Assembly: GCA_016788405.1 (NCBI GenBank)
Contig: JAEUSX010000222.1
Span: forward strand, 1 to 37,031
From: Flavobacteriales bacterium
GTDB taxonomy: Bacteria; Bacteroidota; Bacteroidia; Flavobacteriales_F; PHOS-HE28
Direction of reading: 5' to 3'
Length of the DNA stretch: 37,031 nt
Below are positions 2,268 to 31,056 of the stretch, piece by piece. Made by a program: the position numbers and the translations under genes. Under the pieces are notes generated by a model. It searched no databases. It worked only from the letters and a program-made list of their open reading frames with translations, and was not told where the DNA came from. The stretch's first letter is position 1; every line of letters begins with the position of its first letter.

Positions 2268-4730
2268 ATGGTCGCAGAGGAAGTCACCAACAGGGCCGTC
2301 AGCTTCGAGAGCTACAGGCAGCGGATCACCAACTTCAGCAACGAGTTCGACCTCGGGCTGTTCTTCTACATCTTGAAGCGCAGCATGCCGGTGGTGGTGC
2401 TCGTGCTGCTGCTCGCCGGTGCATCCGCAGCGCTGTACCTGCGCTACACGGTTCCCGTTTTCGAGTCCAAAGCGGTGCTGCAGCTGGGTGAGACCAACAC
2501 GGCCAAGCAGGTGCTTCTCATGAGCAGCTATGGCGAGGAGCAGAACATGTCGGTGGACCTGATCTTCATGCGCAGCCGCCTTTTCCTAGGGATGGCGCTG
2601 GACCGGCTGCCCCTTCAGCTGAGCTACTTCAATCGCGGGCAGATCCTCACCGAGGAGTACTATAAGTACTCCTTCTTCCGGCTGGAGGACCTCGTTCTCA
2701 CCGACAGCGCCGTGATGGATGTGCCGATCTACCTCGACTTCACCTTGCCCGGCAAGGCCGAGGTGAGCTATACCGCGAACGGCCGCCCCTACAAGAACAC
2801 TGTTCAGCGCGGGAGCATCATCACCATGCCGCACTTCACCGGCCGTCTCGTGGTGCATGAGCACCCGATCCTGAGCGACCCCGACGCCCAGTCCACGTTC
2901 TACCTGAAGATCAACAGCCGTGACAAGCTGCTGGACAAGTACGCGAGCCAGGTATGGATCAACTCCCAGGATTTCGCCACCAAGTCCATCGACATCGTGT
3001 GCCGCGATTCGAACCCCTGGGTGGCCCGGGACCTGGCGCAGGCCCTCGCGCAGACCTACATCGATTACGACCTGCACCGCCAGAGCAGCAGCGCGGCCAA
3101 TGTGATCGAGTTCATCCGCACGCAGAAGGACACGGCCTATCGCGAACTCCGGGACTCGGAGTACACCATGCAGAATCTCCAGGGCGAGAACCGCGTAGCC
3201 GACATGGAAGCGCTCACGCCCCTGCTCTTGGAGCGATCGGAGCGCTACGAGGATGAACTGGTGCGACTCACGCTGGATGTGGAATTGCTCAAGGGATTGG
3301 AACGCGCCACCGACCGTCCGAACGGTGAGATCAACGCGCACGACCTCCTGCCATTGCTGCTCGGGACCAAGTACGAGAGCACCCTCTCCATCCCCTTGCG
3401 CACACTTCAGGAGCGCTTGGAAGAACGTGAGGTCGTGCGTGTTGATGCCACCGCGCAGCACCCCGCCCTCGTTGCGGCAGACGACCGGGTGGCCGTGCAG
3501 AAGCGCGTGCTGATGGAAACGCTGCGCCGCCTGCGCGAGAGCGCGGAGAAGCAGCGGGCCGACCTCACGGTGCAGCTGCGCGAGCTCGATGCCCGGTTCC
3601 TGAAGCTCCCGGAGAAGGAGATCGAGTTCGCCCGCGTGGAGCGCGTGTTCACCATCAATCAGAAATTCTACAACCTGCTTCTGGAGAAGGAGGTCGAGTA
3701 CCGCATCAGCAAGGCCGGATTCGTCCCGCAGAACCGCATACTGCAGGACGCCTCCTTCTCGAAGAGCCCGGTCTCACCGAACAAGGAAGTGGTGGTGGGC
3801 TCCTACCTGCTTGCCGGCGTGATCTTGTGCCTGCTCATCCTGCTGGTGCGCTACATCCTTCACGACAACCTCACCAGCTTGAACGATGTGGCCAAGCTCA
3901 GCCACGCGAGCATCGGGATCCTGGGCATGATCCCCAAGTACAAGTACGACATCCCGGTATCGGAGCTGCTCATCGACAAGAACCCGAAGAGCTTGATCGC
4001 CGAGGCGTTCCGGACCGTGCGCACCAACATGCAGTTCGTGGACAATACGCCAGGTCCCAAGGTGGTGGCCATCACGAGCACGATCTCCGGCGAAGGGAAG
4101 ACGTTCGTGGCGATGAACCTGGCGGGCATCATCTCCTTCAGCGGTAAGCGCGTGATCATCCTCGACCTTGACATGCGCAAGCCCAAGATCCACTTGGGAT
4201 TCGATGTCGACAATGAGCGTGGCATGAGCACCATCCTCATCGGCAAGGATGACATCGACTCCTGCATCCGGCACAGCAATCTGGAAGGCCTGGATTACAT
4301 CACGGCAGGCCCGATCCCGCCGAACCCATCGGAACTGATCATCAGCCCGCGCATGCTCGAAGTGCTCGGGACCCTGAAGCAGCGCTATGACATGGTGCTC
4401 TTGGATAATCCGCCAGTGGGCCTGGTGACCGACGGCATCCCGATGATCCAGCTGGCCGATTACCCGATCTACATCTTCAGGAGCGATTACAGCAAGAAAC
4501 ACTTCGTGCAGAACGTGGACCGCCTCATCAACGAGAACAGCATCAAGCGCCTCTCGTGCGTGCTGAACGGGGTTGATGTGGACCGGAACAAGTACGGCTA
4601 CAACTACGGATACGGATACGGTTACGGGTACGGTTATGGATATGGCAGCGGCTATGCCGGTGGATACTACGAGGACAAACCTTCACGACCCAAGCGCGGC
4701 CTCTTCGGCGGCCTCTTCGGAAAATCATGA
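2268..4730 (+). CDS. Wzc-type polysaccharide co-polymerase with BY-kinase domain
   Basis: An 820-residue inner-membrane protein that controls polysaccharide chain length and export. The first membrane helix is near residues 40-60, followed by a large periplasmic region rich in coiled coil, and the second helix is near 505-530. The cytoplasmic bacterial tyrosine kinase domain has a Walker A (TISGEGKTFVAMN, about 600-612), a Walker A' (IILDLDMRKPK, about 628-640) and a Walker B (VLLDNPPVG, near 710). The C-terminal tail carries 12 tyrosines in Gly-Tyr repeats, matching the autophosphorylated tyrosine cluster of this family but unusually regular. Its stop overlaps the ATG of the epimerase gene (ATGA), suggesting translational coupling. 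Confidence 0.93.
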   Translation: MVAEEVTNRAVSFESYRQRITNFSNEFDLGLFFYILKRSMPVVVLVLLLAGASAALYLRYTVPVFESKAVLQLGETNTAKQVLLMSSYGEEQNMSVDLIFMRSRLFLGMALDRLPLQLSYFNRGQILTEEYYKYSFFRLEDLVLTDSAVMDVPIYLDFTLPGKAEVSYTANGRPYKNTVQRGSIITMPHFTGRLVVHEHPILSDPDAQSTFYLKINSRDKLLDKYASQVWINSQDFATKSIDIVCRDSNPWVARDLAQALAQTYIDYDLHRQSSSAANVIEFIRTQKDTAYRELRDSEYTMQNLQGENRVADMEALTPLLLERSERYEDELVRLTLDVELLKGLERATDRPNGEINAHDLLPLLLGTKYESTLSIPLRTLQERLEEREVVRVDATAQHPALVAADDRVAVQKRVLMETLRRLRESAEKQRADLTVQLRELDARFLKLPEKEIEFARVERVFTINQKFYNLLLEKEVEYRISKAGFVPQNRILQDASFSKSPVSPNKEVVVGSYLLAGVILCLLILLVRYILHDNLTSLNDVAKLSHASIGILGMIPKYKYDIPVSELLIDKNPKSLIAEAFRTVRTNMQFVDNTPGPKVVAITSTISGEGKTFVAMNLAGIISFSGKRVIILDLDMRKPKIHLGFDVDNERGMSTILIGKDDIDSCIRHSNLEGLDYITAGPIPPNPSELIISPRMLEVLGTLKQRYDMVLLDNPPVGLVTDGIPMIQLADYPIYIFRSDYSKKHFVQNVDRLINENSIKRLSCVLNGVDVDRNKYGYNYGYGYGYGYGYGYGSGYAGGYYEDKPSRPKRGLFGGLFGKS
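4593..4670 (+). repeat. Gly-Tyr codon repeat in the Wzc tail
   Basis: A run of alternating TAY and GGN codons encodes 12 tyrosines within 26 codons. The six-base unit varies at third positions (gga, ggt, ggg, tac, tat), so it is a degenerate microsatellite, longest between 4605 and 4645. Confidence 0.85.
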
Positions 4731-13629: not shown

Positions 13630-14883
13630 TCACTCGTGCTTGGAGCGCGGTGATGCGCCCGCGAGCTGTTCGTGCGGCAAAGCCTCGTTCTCGTAGATCA
13701 GCGCCGTGCATGGCTGGCCGTCCTTGAAGTAGAAGACGCCGCCCCACTTGTGGTAGACGCGCCGGTATTCCGTGAGCTTGCCAGCGGTTTCCAGCTTCAC
13801 CACCGTGGTCACTTTGCCCGCTTCCACGAGCAGGTCCTCGGTACGCACCACTTCTGGCTCCTCCACGACGGGCTCGGGACGCAGGTCCTGATGCTCAGTG
13901 GCGCGCGCAGGCGCTACGCGCGAAGGCTCCTCGGCCATCACAGGTTCCTGTGTGCGTCGTCCATCCTCACCAGAACGAGGCTCAGAAGCCAGGGTGCTGC
14001 GCTGAGGCGCTGGCGCCGGCGGTAACGGCTTCGGGCGCTCGGCCTTCTGAACGGGCGGGGGCGCTGGCGGAGGCTCGGTCTTCGCCACGGCCTTGGCTTG
14101 CTTGGCGGCGTCGGCCGCGGACTTGGCCTCATCGGCCTTGCGCTTCTCATCGGCTGCCGCGAGCGCCTTCGCCTCTTCGGATCGCCGTTTGTCGGCTTCC
14201 GCTGCGGCTTTGCGCTCGGCTTCGGCCGTGGCCTTCTCTGCTTCAGCCTTCGCCTTCGCCGCAGCGGCTTCCTGAGCCGCGGCCTGCTTCTTCGCCTCCG
14301 CTTCAGCCTTTGCCTGGGCCTTGGCGTCTTCGGCTTTGCGCTTCTCCGCTTCAGCAGCGGCCTGGGCTTCCTGCTTCTGTTTCTGCTCCACCTGCGCGGC
14401 GGCCTCCTGCAGCTGCGATTGGATGGACTTGGTGTAATCGGTATCGTAATCGAAGTCGCCCGCGGACCCATCGTACCGGATCATGCCCACCGGCTGATTG
14501 AAGACCACGGTGTTCACGTCGTCGTACTGCTTGAACAACGAAACCGCGAAGTCGAAGGGCGTGAATCCATTTGCGACCGCATCGGCAGGGACACGGGTAT
14601 CGAACGAGAGTTTCTTGGCCACGAAGCCCGGCTTCTCGAAGGAGACGATGTAGTTGGCGTTCAGGTCGAGATCGAGCGTGAACTTGGAGAGGGCATCCGT
14701 GATGGTCCGCTCCTTGGCCCCGTTCTTATACACGATCACGCGCGCACCATCGAGGTTGCCGCCATCGATCTTCACCCGGCCGTGCGCGATGAACTTGGTC
14801 TGACCCAGCAGGGACATGCCGAACGGGAATACAGCCGCGAGCAGCAGGATGCTTCTGATCGCGAATCGGGTGGTGATGATCAT
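13630..14883 (-). CDS. Secreted Ala/Lys/Glu-rich protein, middle paralog with KWGxFYF end module
   Basis: A 417-residue secreted protein. The signal peptide (AIRSILLLAAVFPFGMSLLGQ) is followed by the shared N-terminal module (about 29-165): LDGARVIVYKNGAKE, KPGFVAKKLSFDT, QPVGMIRYDGSAGDFDYDTD. Residues about 165-280 are a low-complexity Ala/Lys/Glu helix, about 280-340 are proline-rich, and the end holds a second module (about 345-400) with LTEYRRVYHKWGGVFYFKDGQ. The same end module closes the giant protein at 25669-29856. I do not recognise a named family. The long charged helix plus proline hinge suggests a periplasm-spanning or wall-associated spacer, as in TolA-like proteins, but this is inference. 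The start is chosen for the signal peptide; an upstream in-frame ATG at 14937 overlaps the divergent gene. Confidence 0.78.
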   Translation of the reverse strand: MIITTRFAIRSILLLAAVFPFGMSLLGQTKFIAHGRVKIDGGNLDGARVIVYKNGAKERTITDALSKFTLDLDLNANYIVSFEKPGFVAKKLSFDTRVPADAVANGFTPFDFAVSLFKQYDDVNTVVFNQPVGMIRYDGSAGDFDYDTDYTKSIQSQLQEAAAQVEQKQKQEAQAAAEAEKRKAEDAKAQAKAEAEAKKQAAAQEAAAAKAKAEAEKATAEAERKAAAEADKRRSEEAKALAAADEKRKADEAKSAADAAKQAKAVAKTEPPPAPPPVQKAERPKPLPPAPAPQRSTLASEPRSGEDGRRTQEPVMAEEPSRVAPARATEHQDLRPEPVVEEPEVVRTEDLLVEAGKVTTVVKLETAGKLTEYRRVYHKWGGVFYFKDGQPCTALIYENEALPHEQLAGASPRSKHE

Positions 14884-14928
14884 GGAAGAGCCGAACCTCG
14901 GGCGCCCGTGTACGTAACACGCCGCGCC
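14884..14928. promoter_or_regulatory. Compact divergent promoter region
   Basis: Only 45 bases separate the divergent starts at 14883 (minus) and 14929 (plus). At 14909-14921 lies GTGTACGTAACAC, whose arms are complementary and whose TACGTA core can provide a TA-rich -7 candidate in both directions. No -33 element can fit on either side without entering the opposite gene. Confidence 0.4.
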
Positions 14929-20867: not shown

Positions 20868-22451
20868 TTGATCCCCTACATCCTCCTCTACGCCTACTTC
20901 GCGCTGCTGATGGCCAGCCTCTGGAAGCTGTTCCAGAAGGCGGGCAAGCCGGCGTGGGCCGGCCTGGTGCCCGGTTACAACATCCTCGTGTGGCTGAAGA
21001 TCGCCGGCAAGCCGTGGTGGTGGATCGTGCTCTTCATCGTGCCCGGCGTGAACCTGCTCATGTTCATCATCATGAACGTGAACATCTCCATCGTGCTTGG
21101 CCGCCGCAACTACAAGGAGTACGTGCTCATGACCTTCCTCCCGTGGTGGAAAGTCCCCGAGACCATCTTCTCGAAGGACGCCTACATCGGCCCCATCCCG
21201 CCAGAGAAGCGAAAGCGCAACCTCTTCGAGCAATGGGGCGATGCCATCCTCTTCGCTGTGATCGTGGCGACGGTGTTCCGCACGTACACGTTCGAGGCCT
21301 TCACCATCCCCACGCCTTCGATGGAGAAGAGCCTGCTGGTGGGCGATTACCTCTTCGTGAGCAAACTGAGCTACGGCCCGCGGCTGCCCATGACACCGCT
21401 CACCTTCCCGTTCACGCACCACACCATGCCCTTCACGACGAGCACACCCTCGTTCGTGGAGTGGTTCAAGCAGCCGTACCGCCGCCTGCCCGGATTCGGC
21501 GAGCCGCAGCGCGGGGATGCCGTGGTGTTCAACTTCCCGGAAGGCGATACCGTGGTGGCCAATTTCCAGAACCAGAGCTACTACCAACTGGTGCGCGATA
21601 AAGGGCGCAAGAAGCTGAATGACCCCAGATTCAGGCTGCCCAACCAAGTGGATGGACAAACGGTGAGCATGCCGATGGGCGGGATCCTCGTTCGCCCCAT
21701 CGACAAGCGCGAGAATTACATCAAGCGGTGCGTGGCCGTAGCCGGCGATTCGCTGGAAGTGCGCGATGGCGACGTGTACGTGAACGGCGTCAAGGAGATG
21801 CTTCCGGAACAGGCGCAGTACAGCTACAACACCACCTTCAAAGTGGGCTACACCGAGCGAACGCAGAAGACGATGAAGGAGAAGCTTGACATCGGCATCG
21901 GCGACATGTCCGCTGGATCCCTGTTCAATGGCATGCGCCCCGTGACCGGCGAACCGGTGAACGTCGCCCTCTCCGCGGCCCAAGTGAAAGCCTTATCGAA
22001 CGGCAATCCTTACTTCAACACGCTCGAGCGGCAGGTGACTCCGAAGGGCACCGAGTACGCGCAGCAGAAGCGACGGATCTTCCCGAACGATGAGCGATTC
22101 GATTGGAGCGAGGATTTCTTCGGACCCATCTGGATCCCGAAGCAAGGCGCCTCCATTCAGCTCACGGTGGACAATCTGCCGCTCTACCGACGCGTGATCG
22201 ATGTGTACGAAGGGCATGACCTGCAGGTGAAGGGCGACCAGATCCTCATCGACGGCAAGCCGGCCACGAGCTACACCTTCGCGCAGGACTACTACTGGAT
22301 GATGGGCGACAACCGCCACCGAAGCCAGGATAGCCGCTTCTGGGGCTTCGTGCCATTCGACCACATCGTGGGCAAAGCGGTGCTGGTGTGGTTCACGAAG
22401 GATCCGGAGACGGGAATCCGCTGGAAACGGATGTTCTCCGGCGTGAAATAG
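20868..22451 (+). CDS. lepB: Signal peptidase I with N-terminal membrane domain
   Basis: A 527-residue inner-membrane serine protease that removes signal peptides. The first 100 residues form a DUF5684-like hydrophobic domain (AGLVPGYNILVWLKIAGKPW), then a membrane anchor near 125-138. The catalytic Ser151 is in TPSMEKS and the general base Lys286 in YIKRCVAVAGD. The two are 135 residues apart against 55 in E. coli, because of a large insertion usual in this phylum. The C-terminal MMGDNRHRSQDSRFWG box is intact. The start is TTG at 20868; the next in-frame ATG would cut the first helix. Confidence 0.93.
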   Translation: MIPYILLYAYFALLMASLWKLFQKAGKPAWAGLVPGYNILVWLKIAGKPWWWIVLFIVPGVNLLMFIIMNVNISIVLGRRNYKEYVLMTFLPWWKVPETIFSKDAYIGPIPPEKRKRNLFEQWGDAILFAVIVATVFRTYTFEAFTIPTPSMEKSLLVGDYLFVSKLSYGPRLPMTPLTFPFTHHTMPFTTSTPSFVEWFKQPYRRLPGFGEPQRGDAVVFNFPEGDTVVANFQNQSYYQLVRDKGRKKLNDPRFRLPNQVDGQTVSMPMGGILVRPIDKRENYIKRCVAVAGDSLEVRDGDVYVNGVKEMLPEQAQYSYNTTFKVGYTERTQKTMKEKLDIGIGDMSAGSLFNGMRPVTGEPVNVALSAAQVKALSNGNPYFNTLERQVTPKGTEYAQQKRRIFPNDERFDWSEDFFGPIWIPKQGASIQLTVDNLPLYRRVIDVYEGHDLQVKGDQILIDGKPATSYTFAQDYYWMMGDNRHRSQDSRFWGFVPFDHIVGKAVLVWFTKDPETGIRWKRMFSGVK

Positions 22452-22470
22452 CTGGCGGTTGTCAGCGAAC

Positions 22471-23394
22471 ATGGACGAGGAGCCAGGGACCGCGCGCATC
22501 GGACAACCGCGTGCTGTGCTCATCCGGATCTGGCGCGATCAGTGGTTCAGGGCTTTCCTGCTCGCCATCGGGCTGCTCGTCGCACTGAACGCCTTCGTGC
22601 TGAGGCTGGTCACCGTGCGCAGCACGAGCATGTTCGCCACGCTGCGGCCCGGCGATCTGCTGCTGGTGCAACGCTGGGCCAATTGGACCGGGTATGCGCG
22701 CGGTGACATGGTGGTATTCCGTGATCCGCTCAAGGACCGCGGACCCTGGTGGCGATCGGCCCTGCTGGTGAAGCGAATAGCGGCCCTTCCGGGCGACACC
22801 TTGGAGATCCGCGACGGCGTCCTGCTGGTGAATGGCTCCCAGGCCGAGGAACCGACCGGGCTTGCATTCAGCCACCTGATCCGGCTGCGCCCGAATGCCG
22901 ATGCGCTATCCGTGCTCCGGCGGCACGGCATACCCACCGAAACGGTGATGACCGGACGAAGCAGCATCGAAGCGCCATTGACCAGCGCGTTGCGCGACTC
23001 GTTGGAATCGGATCGCGATGTGATCAGTGTGGCGCCTATGAGCCTGGCCAAGGGCGGCCGCATGCACATCTTCCCCTTCAGCCCGCGCTACGCCTGGAAC
23101 GGTGACGACTTCGGCCCGCTGATGATCCCGCGACGTGAAGACACGCTGCGCATCGACGCGCACAATCTCCCGCTGTACGACCGACTGATCAGCATCTACG
23201 AAAGGCACCGATTGAGCAACAGCGGCGACCAACTGCTCATCGATGGCCTGCCGCTGGAACGCTATCGGGTGGAGGAAGACTACTGCTTCGTGCTGGGAGA
23301 CAGCCGCCACTTCAGCGCCGACTCTCGCTATTGGGGCTTCCTGCCGATGAACCGCATCGTGGGTCGGGCCGTTGCGCTGCACCGGGCGCCTTGA
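22471..23394 (+). CDS. Second signal peptidase I (lepB paralog)
   Basis: A 307-residue S26 peptidase lacking the long N-terminal domain of its neighbour. One membrane anchor (FLLAIGLLVALNAFVLRL) is followed by the catalytic Ser53 (RSTSMFATLRPGD) and Lys101 (LVKRIAALPGD), and the end has FVLGDSRHFSADSRYWG. Both catalytic residues are present, so it should be active, perhaps with different substrate choice. It follows lepB by 19 bases and looks like a tandem duplication that has diverged. The ATG at 22471 is preferred to a TTG at 22459. Confidence 0.9.
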   Translation: MDEEPGTARIGQPRAVLIRIWRDQWFRAFLLAIGLLVALNAFVLRLVTVRSTSMFATLRPGDLLLVQRWANWTGYARGDMVVFRDPLKDRGPWWRSALLVKRIAALPGDTLEIRDGVLLVNGSQAEEPTGLAFSHLIRLRPNADALSVLRRHGIPTETVMTGRSSIEAPLTSALRDSLESDRDVISVAPMSLAKGGRMHIFPFSPRYAWNGDDFGPLMIPRREDTLRIDAHNLPLYDRLISIYERHRLSNSGDQLLIDGLPLERYRVEEDYCFVLGDSRHFSADSRYWGFLPMNRIVGRAVALHRAP

Positions 23395-25668: not shown

Positions 25669-28600
25669 TCAGCCCTCCGTCTCACGGGTCCAGATGGCCT
25701 CCGTGATGCTCTGGCCGTTCTTGAAATAGAAGATGCCCCACTTCGCGATCACCTTGCTGTACTCGTCGCCACGATTGCCGTTCACCACCACCCGGCGGAT
25801 GATCACCTTGTTGCCCTCGGTGTAGCTCTCCTCGGTGACGCCCGGTGGATACTCCTGCGCGAGCTTGTTGCGGTTGTAATCGGCGAAATCGCGCGGCTGA
25901 TCCACCGGTGTGGCGTCCAGAGCGGCTTTGTTCCGCGCACGGGCCACATCATTTCCTTGCACATAGCCGGCCTCGCGAGCGATGGTCGCGCGCTTGGCGT
26001 CGTCGATCGCGCGAAGACGCTCCTCGCTCTGGGCCGCGCCTTTCCGCCGCCGGTCCGCCTCCTGCTCGATCACCTGCTCCACTTGGCTTCGCTGACTGCT
26101 GGAACGCTGGGCGCTGGCACTGGCCCGCTGGCTCTCGGCTGTCCGGATGGCATTGCTCTGCTCAACCACGGTGCTGGCGGCCTGCACCTGCCGCGTGGAA
26201 AGGTCCTGCTCGCGCGAGAGCACCCGTTCCTGGGTCGCCACTTTCAGATCATACTGCTGCGCGGAGACCTGGCCCGAACGGTCGCGGCGCTGCAGCTCGC
26301 TCTCAGCCACGCGGTCCTTCAGCGCCTGCACCTCGGCTGCGCTCAATTCGCGACGTGTCTCGTCGCCACGGTACAGGCCAGCCTGACCATCGACGATCCG
26401 CTCCTTCTCGTTGACCGCTCCGTTGCGACGCGCCGAGGCATCGGTGGCGTTCGAAGCCTCCTCCGCCATCACATCCTCGCGCTGCTTCTTGATCCGCTGC
26501 CATTTCTCGAACTCCTCCCGCTCGCGCGCCTTGCGCATGAACTCCTCGGCCTGTTGCTCGTTGCTGCGATCAATGCTGGTACTGGGCCGCGTTCGCCGTT
26601 GCGAATCATCTTCGGCCGCCTTGCGGGCAGCGAGCTCGGCCTCCTGCCGCTGCCGCTCCAGCTCAGCCAGCAGGCGATCGATCTGATCGATCTTGGCCAG
26701 CGGATAGGTCTCCTGCGGCTTCAAGTCGCTGGCCTCCGCGTACAGGCCTCGTGCCCGTGGGTAATCCTTTGAAGCCATCGCCTCATCGGCGCTTACGAGC
26801 GCGCTGCGATAACGCTCGTCCAGCGCCTTCGCTTCGCCTCGTGCCAGCCGGTCGCGCTCCTCGGCGAGACGGCGGGCCTCGGCATCCGCGTCCTCCTGCG
26901 CTTTCCGCTCCGCTTCCAGCCGTGCGCGCTCCGCATCGGCCGCGAGGCGCGCGCGCTCAGCATCCTCCGCCTCTTTGCGGCGACGCTCCTCCTCCTCCTT
27001 CCTCCGCTGTTCAGCCAGTCGCTCCGCCTCGCTTCGGTTGAGCTCACGTTTGGCGACCTCCGCGTCGATGGCTGCCAGCCGGTCCTTCGGGTACTTCTCC
27101 TGCGGACGAAGACCCAAGGCCTCGGTGAATCGCTCGCGAGCCTGGTCGAAGCTCTCCTGCGTGAAAGCGAGGTCACCTGCGGCGATGGCTTCGCGGTACT
27201 GCTGCATCAGTGCTTCCTCCTCGGACTTCTTGCGCCGTGCTTCTTCCTCCAGGCGCGCTTTCTCGGCAGCGGCAAGTTCAGCGGCCAGCTTATCGGCAGC
27301 CTCCTTGGCAGCTCGATCCGCAGCGGCCTTCGCAGCGGCATCGCGCGCAGCGGCATCCTTCTCCGCCAGCTCGGCGAGGATGCGCTCGATCTCCGTCAAC
27401 CGGTCCTTGGGCTTCTGCTCCTCCGGCTTCACGGCGAGCGCCTCGGTGTAGCTGGTGCGCGCCTGCTCGTACTTCTTGGCAGTGAAATCGCGGTCAGCTG
27501 CCGCGATCAGCTCACCGTACCGCTTGTCCTGTTCCGCCTTTTCCCTGGCCAATCGTTCCTCCTCGGCTCTGGCCTTCGCCGCTGCATCCATCTTCGACTC
27601 GATATCGATGATGCGCTCGCGCGGGTGGGCCTCATCGGGCTTCAGAGCCGCTGCATCCTTGTAATCCACCAGGGCGGCGGATAGCTTCTCGCTTACATAA
27701 GCCTTGTCTGCCCGGCTGATCAGCTCCTGGTACTTGGCGTCGCGCTCACGGGCAAGTCGCTCCTCCTCCTCCCGCTTCGCTTTCTCGGCCATCCTGGCCT
27801 CGGACTCGGCGATGCGGTCCTTGGGATATCGTTCGGCAGGAAGCAAGGATGACGCTTCGGTGTATTTCGTCTTCGCCGTGGCGAAGTCCTCTTTGTCGAA
27901 CGCGCCGTCGGCAACGGCGATGATCGCGTCGTATCGCGCTTTGACCTCTTCCTGGCGCTTGCGCTCCTCGGCTGCTGCCTTGCGCTGCGCGACAACAGCG
28001 AGCTGATCCTTCGGATAGTGCTCGCCGGGCTTAAGCGTGGAAGCCTCCGTGTATTTCGCCGTGGCGGCGGTCCAGTCCTCGGCGTTCAAGGCGGCGTCCG
28101 CTGCTACGACCGCCGCATCGTACTTGTCCTGAAGTTCCTTCGCCTTGCGCTCCTCTTCAGCTTTCTTGGCCAGTTCTTCGTTCTTCTTGTTGATCAGCGC
28201 GATCTGATCCTTGGGATACTGTTCCTTCGGCTTCAGGCTGCTCGCTTCGGTGTACTTCGCGATGGCCTCATCGTATCGTTCGCCGGTGAAGGATTGCATG
28301 GCAGCGGCCAGCGCGGCCTGGTACTGCGCATCCAAGTCCTTCGCCTTACGCTCTTCCTCTGCCTTGGCCGCTAGTTCCTCACGCTTCTTCGCGATGGCAG
28401 CGAGCTGGTCCTTGGGGTACTTCTCCTCGGGCTTGAAGCCGATGGCCTCGTTGTACTTGGTCTCGGCGTCGTCGTAGCGCGCACCGTTGAAGGCGATATC
28501 GGCCGCGGCGATGGCGGCTTGGTACTTCTGCTGGTTCTCCTTCGCCAATCGCTCTTCGTCGGCCTTCCGTTTCTCTTCCTCCTTCTTCGCAGCGATGGCG

Positions 28601-29856
28601 GCGAGCTGATCCTTCGGGTATTTCTCCTCCGGCTTCAACGTTCCTGCCTCGGTGTATTTGGCGGTGGCGATGTCCCAGCTATTGGCCTTGAAGGCTGCGT
28701 CGCCAGCCGTTATCGCGGCGTCGTATTTCTGCTGCAGCTCCCTGGCTTTCTTCTCGTCTTCGGCTTTCTTGGCCAGTTCCTCCTTCTTCTTCGCGATGGC
28801 CGCGATCTGGTCCTTGGGGTAGCGCTCCTCCGGCTTCAAGCCACCGGCCTCCGTGTACTTGGTGGTGGCCTGATCCCAGTTCTCGGCCTTGAAGGCCGCA
28901 TCGGCGGCGGCAATGGCCGCATCGTACTTCTGCTGAAGCTCCTTGGCCTTCTTCTCTTCCTCGGCCTTCTTCGCGAGATCAGCCAGGATCGTGTCGATCT
29001 CCTTCACCCGTTGCTTGGGATGGGCCTCATTCTCCTTGATGTCGAGCGCGGCTTCGTATTTCGCCTTGGCCGGCTCGTAGCTCTTCTTGCCGAACAGTCC
29101 ATCCGCCTCCTTGATCAGCGCAGCATACTCTTCGTCCAGCTTCTTCGCGCCCTCTGATGCTTCCAATCGCATGCGCGCGTCGCTGAGCTTGGCCGTGGCC
29201 ACCGCATCCCCGACCTTCAGCGTCAGCGCCTCGGTGAAGCTCTCCACCGCCTTCTTGAAATCACTGGCCCCCATGGCCGTGCTGCCCTGGGTCATGAGCT
29301 TCGCGAACTCGGCCTCAGCGTTGGCCTCGCGCTTCTTCCTCTCGTCGTACTCCTTGAGCAGTCGCGCCTGCGCGTCGCGCATGCGGTTGGTGTACTCCAT
29401 GTCCCACTCGAAGTTGCCGGTGGCGCCCACGTACTTGGCCTTGCCGAATGCTTCCTGAAGGATCGAGAAGTCCACGCCGGGGATCTCGGACAGCATGGTG
29501 AAGTCTATGTTCATGCCGTGACCGCCCTGCCTCTCCTCTTCCGGTATGTTGCGCGTATCGATGACGATGTTCTTGCTGACGAAGCCCTTCTTCGAGCACA
29601 TCACCTTGTATTCCGACCCGTAGTCAAGGTTCACTTCGTACTTGCCGCTGGCGTTGGTGGGCACCTCCACCAGCTTCGCCCCGTTCTTGAACACGGAGAT
29701 CACGACGCCATCGATCTTCTTGGCCGTGGTGAGGTCCTTCACCGTGCCGAAGACCATGACCACATCGACCTGCGACCATGCCGCAACAAAGAGGAGCAGG
29801 CAAGCCATGCTGGCTACGCCACGCTTCCAGGTGTACTGCAATTTACTGGCGTTCAA
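25669..29856 (-). CDS. Giant secreted TPR-coil repeat protein, long paralog with KWGxFYF end module
   Basis: About 1,395 residues from a TTG at 29856, or 1,379 from an ATG at 29808. The TTG gives a better signal peptide (basic YTWKRG before VASMACLLLFVAAWSQ). Residues about 30-183 form the shared N-terminal module (VISVFKNGAKL, KKGFVSKNIVIDT, VGATGNFEWDMEYT). From about 184 a degenerate TPR is followed by 11 TPR-like units (244 to about 1056), each a TPR helix pair ending YPKDQ-type plus a charged third helix. A Gln/Arg/Glu-rich stretch follows, then the end module DEYSKVIAKWGIFYFKNGQ. An open frame continues upstream to 31104 but runs antisense through the FAD gene and is rejected. The repeats suggest an extended periplasmic or surface rod; function unknown. 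Confidence 0.82.
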   Translation of the reverse strand: MNASKLQYTWKRGVASMACLLLFVAAWSQVDVVMVFGTVKDLTTAKKIDGVVISVFKNGAKLVEVPTNASGKYEVNLDYGSEYKVMCSKKGFVSKNIVIDTRNIPEEERQGGHGMNIDFTMLSEIPGVDFSILQEAFGKAKYVGATGNFEWDMEYTNRMRDAQARLLKEYDERKKREANAEAEFAKLMTQGSTAMGASDFKKAVESFTEALTLKVGDAVATAKLSDARMRLEASEGAKKLDEEYAALIKEADGLFGKKSYEPAKAKYEAALDIKENEAHPKQRVKEIDTILADLAKKAEEEKKAKELQQKYDAAIAAADAAFKAENWDQATTKYTEAGGLKPEERYPKDQIAAIAKKKEELAKKAEDEKKARELQQKYDAAITAGDAAFKANSWDIATAKYTEAGTLKPEEKYPKDQLAAIAAKKEEEKRKADEERLAKENQQKYQAAIAAADIAFNGARYDDAETKYNEAIGFKPEEKYPKDQLAAIAKKREELAAKAEEERKAKDLDAQYQAALAAAMQSFTGERYDEAIAKYTEASSLKPKEQYPKDQIALINKKNEELAKKAEEERKAKELQDKYDAAVVAADAALNAEDWTAATAKYTEASTLKPGEHYPKDQLAVVAQRKAAAEERKRQEEVKARYDAIIAVADGAFDKEDFATAKTKYTEASSLLPAERYPKDRIAESEARMAEKAKREEEERLARERDAKYQELISRADKAYVSEKLSAALVDYKDAAALKPDEAHPRERIIDIESKMDAAAKARAEEERLAREKAEQDKRYGELIAAADRDFTAKKYEQARTSYTEALAVKPEEQKPKDRLTEIERILAELAEKDAAARDAAAKAAADRAAKEAADKLAAELAAAEKARLEEEARRKKSEEEALMQQYREAIAAGDLAFTQESFDQARERFTEALGLRPQEKYPKDRLAAIDAEVAKRELNRSEAERLAEQRRKEEEERRRKEAEDAERARLAADAERARLEAERKAQEDADAEARRLAEERDRLARGEAKALDERYRSALVSADEAMASKDYPRARGLYAEASDLKPQETYPLAKIDQIDRLLAELERQRQEAELAARKAAEDDSQRRTRPSTSIDRSNEQQAEEFMRKAREREEFEKWQRIKKQREDVMAEEASNATDASARRNGAVNEKERIVDGQAGLYRGDETRRELSAAEVQALKDRVAESELQRRDRSGQVSAQQYDLKVATQERVLSREQDLSTRQVQAASTVVEQSNAIRTAESQRASASAQRSSSQRSQVEQVIEQEADRRRKGAAQSEERLRAIDDAKRATIAREAGYVQGNDVARARNKAALDATPVDQPRDFADYNRNKLAQEYPPGVTEESYTEGNKVIIRRVVVNGNRGDEYSKVIAKWGIFYFKNGQSITEAIWTRETEG
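26691..29307 (-). repeat. Tandem 201-base (67-residue) TPR-coil repeats
   Basis: Unit starts (tyrosine codons, minus strand) fall at 29127, 28926, 28725, 28524, 28323, 28122, 27933, 27732, 27519, 27198 and 26811, preceded by a degenerate unit from 29307. The first five intervals are exactly 201 bases; later ones are 189, 201, 213, 321 and 387 as the charged helix lengthens. The core is A-x3-A-x2-A-F, KYTEA, LKPEE and YPKDQ. Confidence 0.9.
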
Positions 29857-29925: not shown

Positions 29926-31056
29926 ATGCATAGCCTCTGGCAGCAACGCGCCTTCCACAGCCAGCCCGATCTGGTGGTCGTCGGCGCGGGAATCGTTGGC
30001 CTGTTCATCGCGCTTTTCCACCAACGGCGGCATCCCAAGCATCGAGTGATGGTGCTTGAACGGGCCGCCTTTCCGGACGGAGCAACGGTGAGGAACGCCG
30101 GCTTCGCGTGCTTCGGGAGCCCGAGCGAGCTGCTGCACGACCTCGATAAAGAAGGTGAAACGGTCGCGCTGCAACGCGCTGAAGAACGCTGGCATGGCCT
30201 GCTGGAGCTCAGGGCCGAATTGGGTGATGAAGGGATCGGTTATGAGGCAACGGGTGGACATGAGGCGTTCGTGACGGGCGATGCGCTGTACCCGCCTGTC
30301 GCCGAAGGGTTCGAGCGGCTCAACGATATGATGCGGCCGATCACCGGTACCACCACCTTCTGCTGGGCCGATGACCTCATCGAGCATCTCGGCCTGGGCG
30401 GGGTCGATCATCTGGCCCGGACTGAATTCGAAGGCGCGATTGATTCCGCGAAGCTCATTAGAAGCCTGATGCAGAAGGCACAGGAAGAAGGCGTGCTGAT
30501 CAGAGGGAACGCTGATGTGGCCCGGATCGCATCGGATGCCTCGCATGTGGACCTCATCCTCCGTGATGGGACGGTGATCACCACCGAGCGCGTCGCGGTG
30601 GCCACCAACGGCTTCACGCCAGCCCTGATGCCGGAGTTGGATGTGGTGCCTGCCCGCGGCCAAGTCCTGCTCACGGCGCCGATTCCAGCCCTTCGCCTTC
30701 GGGGCACCTTCCACATGAACGAGGGCTTCTACTATTTCCGCGATTGCGACGGGGGCATTCTGCTCGGCGGTGCACGCCACTTGGATGTCGAAGGTGAACG
30801 CACGATGCAGGAAGGATTGACCTCCTTGATCCAATCGGACCTTGAACGACTCTTGCGCGATGTGATCCTCCCTGGTCAGGAATTCAGCATCGCGAATCGT
30901 TGGAGCGGCACCATGGCCTTTGGCAGCGCGGGCAAGACCCCTTTGGTGGAGCGCATCACCGACCGGGTCGCAGTGGCAGTGCGCTTGGGCGGCATGGGCG
31001 TCGCCATCGGCATCCGGGTGGCGAGGCGCGCAGCGGCATTGCTGGATGAAGCTTGA
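29926..31056 (+). CDS. FAD-dependent oxidoreductase (DAO family)
   Basis: A 376-residue flavoenzyme of the D-amino-acid/glycine oxidase superfamily. The dinucleotide-binding motif is VVGAGIVGLFIAL (Gly20-Gly25) with the ribose-binding Glu45 in VLERAAFP. VRNAGFACFGS contacts FAD, and the C-terminal part has VRLGGMGVAIGIRVA. There is no signal peptide, so it acts in the cytoplasm or at the inner face of the membrane. The substrate amine or hydroxyl acid cannot be told. It faces away from the giant protein gene across an about 70-base divergent region. Confidence 0.88.
   Translation: MHSLWQQRAFHSQPDLVVVGAGIVGLFIALFHQRRHPKHRVMVLERAAFPDGATVRNAGFACFGSPSELLHDLDKEGETVALQRAEERWHGLLELRAELGDEGIGYEATGGHEAFVTGDALYPPVAEGFERLNDMMRPITGTTTFCWADDLIEHLGLGGVDHLARTEFEGAIDSAKLIRSLMQKAQEEGVLIRGNADVARIASDASHVDLILRDGTVITTERVAVATNGFTPALMPELDVVPARGQVLLTAPIPALRLRGTFHMNEGFYYFRDCDGGILLGGARHLDVEGERTMQEGLTSLIQSDLERLLRDVILPGQEFSIANRWSGTMAFGSAGKTPLVERITDRVAVAVRLGGMGVAIGIRVARRAAALLDEA

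Follow-up and report, generated by a model that had tools for sequence, protein, structure and literature searches.

What fixes the spacing of a repeat array whose joints recur at intervals of exactly 201 bases, and does so regular a register mean that the array is young? The question is posed by a gene on the minus strand of a 37,031-nucleotide stretch of Flavobacteriales bacterium DNA (GenBank assembly GCA_016788405.1, contig JAEUSX010000222.1, positions 1 to 37,031; hereafter the window), which encodes an array of tetratricopeptide repeat (TPR) units connected by long charged helices. A first-pass annotation, made from the letters of the window, had attributed the array to recent tandem expansion from one end. 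We arrive at a different reading, to which we give a probability of about 0.68, namely that the gene product is an exported TPR scaffold built like beads on a rod, in which continuous helices set the spacing of the modules while their orientation is kept. The wider proposal, that a widespread and as yet unnamed family of exported Bacteroidia proteins forms ruler-like rods, in which TPR modules sit on monomeric alpha-helices and helix length evolves by whole turns (3.6 residues, rather than the 3.5 of a coiled coil), so that modules may stand many turns nearer or farther apart with their orientation unchanged, is in our judgment evenly poised.

The extent of the gene and the two parts of its array are as follows.

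25672..29856, minus strand: whole gene, defined as an open reading frame (ORF) of about 1395 codons, with its stop codon at 25669-25671

28017..29022, minus strand: even block, with five exact 201-base intervals between joint positions (units 3-7; 51-78% identity among units)

26704..28017, minus strand: units 8-12, with joint-to-joint intervals of 189, 201, 213, 321 and 387 bases, each unit forming one clade by position in the unit tree

Judging from the sequence, the gene most likely starts at the TTG at 29856 or at the TTG at 29841; the nearest relative has identical spacing between two TTG codons at its gene start, and the alternative ATG at 29808 would give a signal peptide that carries no positive charge. 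Eleven joint codons start at 29022, 28821, 28620, 28419, 28218, 28017, 27828, 27627, 27414, 27093 and 26706, and the series of intervals between them on the minus strand (201 five times, then 189, 201, 213, 321 and 387 bases) matches exactly the one first reported for this array. The YPKDQ motif described there as a fixed joint is fixed in position, coinciding with the predicted start of a long helix, but not in sequence, as HPKQRV stands at the first joint and YPLAKI at the last. Since a unit profile built from the window protein recovers 12 units (the first two degenerate, at 15.9 and 42.3 bits, and the others at 72-99 bits), the repeats reflect homology rather than chance. At the DNA level, Tandem Repeats Finder reported only positions 28487-28969 as regular enough, with a period of 201, a 73% match and about 2.4 copies.

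Expressed in residues, the window intervals of 63, 67, 71, 107 and 129 differ by near-multiples of 3.6, the length of a helical turn. This turn-length hypothesis was recorded before 38 test loci from the class (L136-L173) were retrieved, which provided 553 joint-to-joint intervals from 14 families. Lengths in this test set cluster at 53, 56/57, 60, 63/64, 67, 71, 74/75, 78 and 81 residues, with a best period of 3.56 (R=0.66), and 87% of the intervals lie within 0.75 residue of the lattice 60+3.6k, compared with 39% expected. With a given length entering only once for any one family (n=87), the period that fitted best was 3.60 (R=0.41; p=5e-5 relative to a smoothed null), and 69% of lengths were on the lattice; when the whole pooled set was reduced to its distinct lengths, no peak appeared near 3.6, although such a count has no power. 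Two control distances measured in the same proteins showed no periodicity (R=0.16, p=0.63 and R=0.09, p=0.80). Within the genus of the window, lengths from 59 to 129 residues stay on the lattice (R=0.60, p=0.0009), as do the long units taken alone (p=0.008). Across many related bacteria, then, the helices lengthen or shorten almost only by whole helical turns, so that adjoining modules probably keep facing one way.

Two other explanations of the length rule need to be weighed against these data. One is that the long helices pair, either with a second chain as a parallel coiled coil or with each other inside one chain, which would make the length rule a heptad rule. The hold-out period of 3.56 does fall between 3.5 and 3.6, and a seven-residue dependence of linker length is known in photoreceptor histidine kinases (PMC6798134), but the genus lengths, which extend to 129 residues, reject a period of 3.5 (R=0.13, versus 0.59 at 3.6) and so rule out a strict heptad for that set; in addition, most spacers contain just 5-10% hydrophobic residues. 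We therefore consider a coiled coil unlikely. The second explanation, which we regard as quite improbable, holds that quantisation results from slippage, within the charged helices, of short DNA repeats that keep the reading frame (4, 7 or 11 codons), rather than from structural selection. The spacers are of low complexity and rich in E, K, R and A, as slippage would favor, but steps of 3 and 4 residues alternate on one lattice (60, 63/64, 67, 70/71) in 14 families, which a fixed slip size would not produce, and the control distances that span the low-complexity C-terminal helices are flat.

The protein that carries the array can be divided into the following parts.

29773..29856, minus strand: signal peptide, read from the sequence, with cleavage likely between AWS and the Q of QVDVV; relatives share AQVDNV at this place

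29404..29760, minus strand: N-terminal beta-sandwich, carboxypeptidase-regulatory-like (CRD; PF13620), with AlphaFold2 strands within residues 28-146 at a predicted local distance difference test score (pLDDT) of about 90

28960..29337, minus strand: units 1 and 2, the degenerate TPR units (15.9 and 42.3 bits), with AlphaFold2 helices at 148-268; unit 2 contains the first joint, HPKQRV, at 29022

27160..27417, minus strand: predicted 86-residue continuous helix of the 107-residue unit (AlphaFold2 H109-194), with a spacer that is 46% charged and 38% Ala

26773..27096, minus strand: predicted 108-residue continuous helix of the 129-residue unit (AlphaFold2 H216-323), with a spacer that is 60% charged

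25918..26553, minus strand: predicted long charged C-terminal helices of 57 and 148 residues that lack TPRs (AlphaFold2 H397-453 and H461-608)

25672..25851, minus strand: conserved five-stranded C-terminal domain (GVTEESYTEGNKVIIRRVVVNG...YSKVIAKWGIFYFKNGQSITEAIW), which hardly varies within the genus and whose motif also closes most members across the class

On reading the signal peptide, no lipobox cysteine was found in it. The match of the window protein to PF13620 (E=1.2e-5, 25.9 bits) is under the curated cut-off of 32.3, and the CRD / CarboxypepD_reg match of the relative L137 (33.7 bits) is above the Pfam gathering score. Likewise, TPR_2 scores 17.8 bits against the window protein, where the cut-off is 27, and 53 bits against the relative L138. 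In L137 and L138, Pfam also matched glyoxalase and tyrosine decarboxylase; these hits were set aside as artefacts of the repeats, as no single stretch passes.

AlphaFold2 was run on two pieces of the protein with alignments of relatives (A2 and A3), giving mean pLDDT values of 86 and 81. In these predictions each unit consists of a long helix followed by a short helix of 14 residues. The long helix measures about 39-46 residues in the majority of units (41-46 in those of 67 residues) and reaches 50, 86 and 108 in late ones, with the YPKDQ joint starting the long helix and the far end of that helix serving as helix A of the next TPR. The spacer segments, which are 46-67% charged and 5-21% hydrophobic, are predicted to be helical throughout. 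Single alpha-helix (SAH) domains are defined by a charged helix that is stable as a monomer in solution; what was observed of the spacers in this regard is their composition and their predicted continuity. The models thus support the 67-residue module with a long charged helix that the first-pass annotation described, as well as its suggestion that later units are longer through growth of this helix (to 86 and 108 residues). Its assignment of a TPR pair to every unit did not hold, since the predicted secondary structure and the TPR profile matches give one TPR per unit, and two are ruled out by the AlphaFold2 secondary structure. A profile built from alignment A2 matches CTPR390 at 1.1e-8 and OGT at 2e-6, and also SGT2. 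Foldseek searches with both models returned ordinary TPR proteins only, at template modelling (TM) scores of 0.10 or less over the query, and no solved structure that is alike overall.

From these elements we infer how the rod may be put together. In order along the protein come the CRD-like beta-sandwich, 12 single TPR hairpins on long, mostly charged helices, the long helices that follow and the conserved C-terminal beta domain. Each long helix would start at the YPKDQ joint, pack against the TPR hairpin just completed, continue as the charged spacer and end as helix A of the following TPR. Every junction would then be a three-helix bundle, and adjoining bundles would share one continuous helix, which is the principle of spectrin. 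Because the helix would be continuous, a single added residue would rotate the next TPR by about 100 degrees, and this is presumably why accepted changes in length are almost only whole turns; spacers could vary the distance between successive TPRs while preserving their azimuth. The helices would be monomeric and stiff and, judging from their lengths, the TPR part could reach some 60 nm if extended. From this form we would expect a spacer or scaffold that presents TPR faces at set distances and in a fixed orientation, and that may hold partner proteins within the cell envelope or beyond it.

Several observations weigh against this rod model. The AlphaFold2 models have low predicted TM scores (pTM; 0.34 and 0.24) and therefore give no prediction of the overall shape, so that our claims concern local structure only, and one of the long helices is broken at low confidence at about residues 357-363. 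Lengths copied by duplication are not independent of one another, which makes the per-family count, with 69% on the lattice, safer than the count of all intervals. Finally, one family at the class level (f5) is far less cleanly quantised, with lengths of 59, 65, 66 and 69 also present.

If the rod model is correct, insertions of one or two residues should alter the shape of the protein and insertions of 4, 7 or 11 residues should not. The phase-locked spacer lengths record, with a clarity that is unusual in nature, how geometry constrains a repeat protein, and they suggest a design rule for rods with adjustable spacing and fixed orientation. TPR hairpins, charged helices and the CRD domain are each familiar, but no entry naming their combination was present in the libraries searched, and literature searches found no description of it.

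The age of the array was judged from the genomes of relatives. These were collected by searching named genomes and also the genus; all 45 genus genomes contain relatives, some of which match through the N-terminal domain only, and searches at the family and order levels yielded just these 45 genomes. The clade that includes the window's species has 13 members, and in 12 of these, the window's species among them and the others 59-76% identical to the window, there are twelve units. The series of 60, 67 (five times), 63, 67, 71, 107 and 129 residues is essentially the same in all 12, although in four of them a single interval is one residue off. The remaining member of the clade has 13 units, and there are 10 or 11 in other clades. 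Each of the 12 window units is nearest to the unit at the same position in the closest relative. In a tree of units, units 2 and 8-12 each form one clade by position, and units 3-7 are partly mixed; because the latter are not cleanly monophyletic by position, an old conversion or exchange of units within this block is possible.

Recent tandem expansion of the 201-base unit from the N-terminal end, as first proposed, is hard to reconcile with this constancy of number and length, or with the divergence between units. At fourfold sites, units 3-7 diverge from one another by 0.54, and the value for all pairs of units is 0.62, near the saturation value of 0.655 and similar to the 0.55-0.66 between orthologous units, and the highest DNA identity between any two units inside the window gene is 77%. 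Units 3-7 are indeed the most alike in protein sequence (51-78% identity), and their sorting by position is not clean, but strong conservation between species is likewise a feature of units 3-6, which rank among the most conserved units. Recent duplications of units, at 90-95% DNA identity, do occur in other family members (L141, L153, L140, L151 and L150), and the near-identical units are sometimes three or four units apart, which suggests duplication of whole blocks. The first-pass annotation had named equal divergence among units together with a constant copy number as evidence that would speak against expansion; copy number is constant in 12 of the 13 clade members, whereas protein divergence between units is unequal. 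For the window gene we hold recent expansion to be very improbable. Judged by these comparisons, the window array is old and fixed in unit number, with no recent expansion, and the family as such is able to expand. An exact DNA period, in this case, does not necessarily indicate recent duplication.

A sample of 284 genomes of the class from outside the genus contained the array in 69 cases (80 of 295 genomes once the genus is added; 41 of 155 genera). A different draw of phylum genomes, searched with a shorter query, gave 2 of 247, so the figure of 80 in 295 is not a class-wide prevalence and the family is patchy. By sequence, then, the family is widespread but patchy in Bacteroidia, and its members share their ends. 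Those that look complete have roughly 9-25 units, and most terminate in the motif KYPxGVTEE...RRIVVxG...YxKxxxxWGGxYYFKNGxxIT. Two short relatives occur in the window's own genome. A paralogue at 13633-14889 of the window (minus strand) has both end domains (CRD-like, and C-terminal KWGGVFYFKDGQ), with a Lys/Ala/Glu-rich coil replacing the TPR array, and a 300-residue ORF elsewhere (L007; G000:C70:3427-4080) resembles the long protein reduced to one unit, with a signal peptide, a single TPR unit whose joint is YPKVKI, and this C-terminal domain. Since such one-unit and TPR-less proteins occur, the end domains and the array are separable.

The rod could also be placed differently, as a surface adhesin or a component of a gliding filament whose array is a stalk that carries the ends off the cell, a variant of the rod model in location and role that we regard as doubtful. 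The signal peptide, the length of some 60 nm that the helix lengths would give on extension and the variation of repeat number across the class are consistent with a stalk; on the other side, an NCBIfam search of the window protein gave no type IX secretion C-terminal domain, and the conserved C-terminal domain is also borne by short paralogues with one or no TPR unit.

One gene beside the array has been kept next to it in some relatives.

29926..31056, plus strand: divergent neighbor, a flavin adenine dinucleotide (FAD)-dependent oxidoreductase (DAO, PF01266; E=1.5e-34)

This neighbor is kept at 17 genus loci and at 13 of 41 class loci. A scan of the divergent intergenic region for promoters and terminators found nothing, and an operon with the downstream RDD gene was rejected, as that adjacency is not conserved in relatives. 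Elsewhere in the window, adjacent plus-strand ORFs at 20868-22451 and 22459-23394 resemble signal peptidase I genes, and a 12-base repeat at 4605-4642 codes for a Tyr-Gly-rich tail (YGYGYGYGYG) at the end of an ORF for a Wzc-like tyrosine kinase, which sits in an exopolysaccharide-type gene cluster; these names were assigned by reading only.

Among known systems, the family can be likened to a TPR scaffold that follows the spectrin principle. With TPR arrays, for example those of OGT and the designed CTPR proteins, it shares the hairpin of helix A and short helix B, along with the profile matches to CTPR390, OGT and SGT2 and the TPR proteins returned by Foldseek. The standard TPR has 34 residues, and such repeats are directly stacked, a period that the window array does not show, whereas this family has one TPR per 53-129 residues (67 here) and a spacer helix that is predicted to be continuous. 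Among Bacteroidota envelope proteins, PorE / PG1058 of the type IX secretion system combines, in order, a TPR, a beta-propeller, a CRD and an OmpA_C domain (PMC5053529). The window protein similarly joins TPRs to a CRD fold but has the CRD first, and membership in PorE was ruled out, as no beta-propeller or OmpA_C Pfam match was obtained at E<=0.1. Spectrin repeats, as in dystrophin and utrophin, are three-helix bundles in which a helix runs from one repeat into the next (PMC3401230), and the proposed rod would likewise have adjoining bundles that share a helix, the continuity of the helices being predicted by modelling and their packing proposed by us. In the proposed rod, a TPR hairpin would be the base of each bundle and the charged spacer would lie outside it, and no Pfam match to a spectrin profile was found in the window protein. 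Finally, helical phase also restricts linker length in sensor histidine kinases such as YF1 and its relatives (PMC6798134); those linkers are dimeric coiled coils that follow a seven-residue rule and serve signalling, whereas the window family is a repeat array with a best period of 3.56-3.62.

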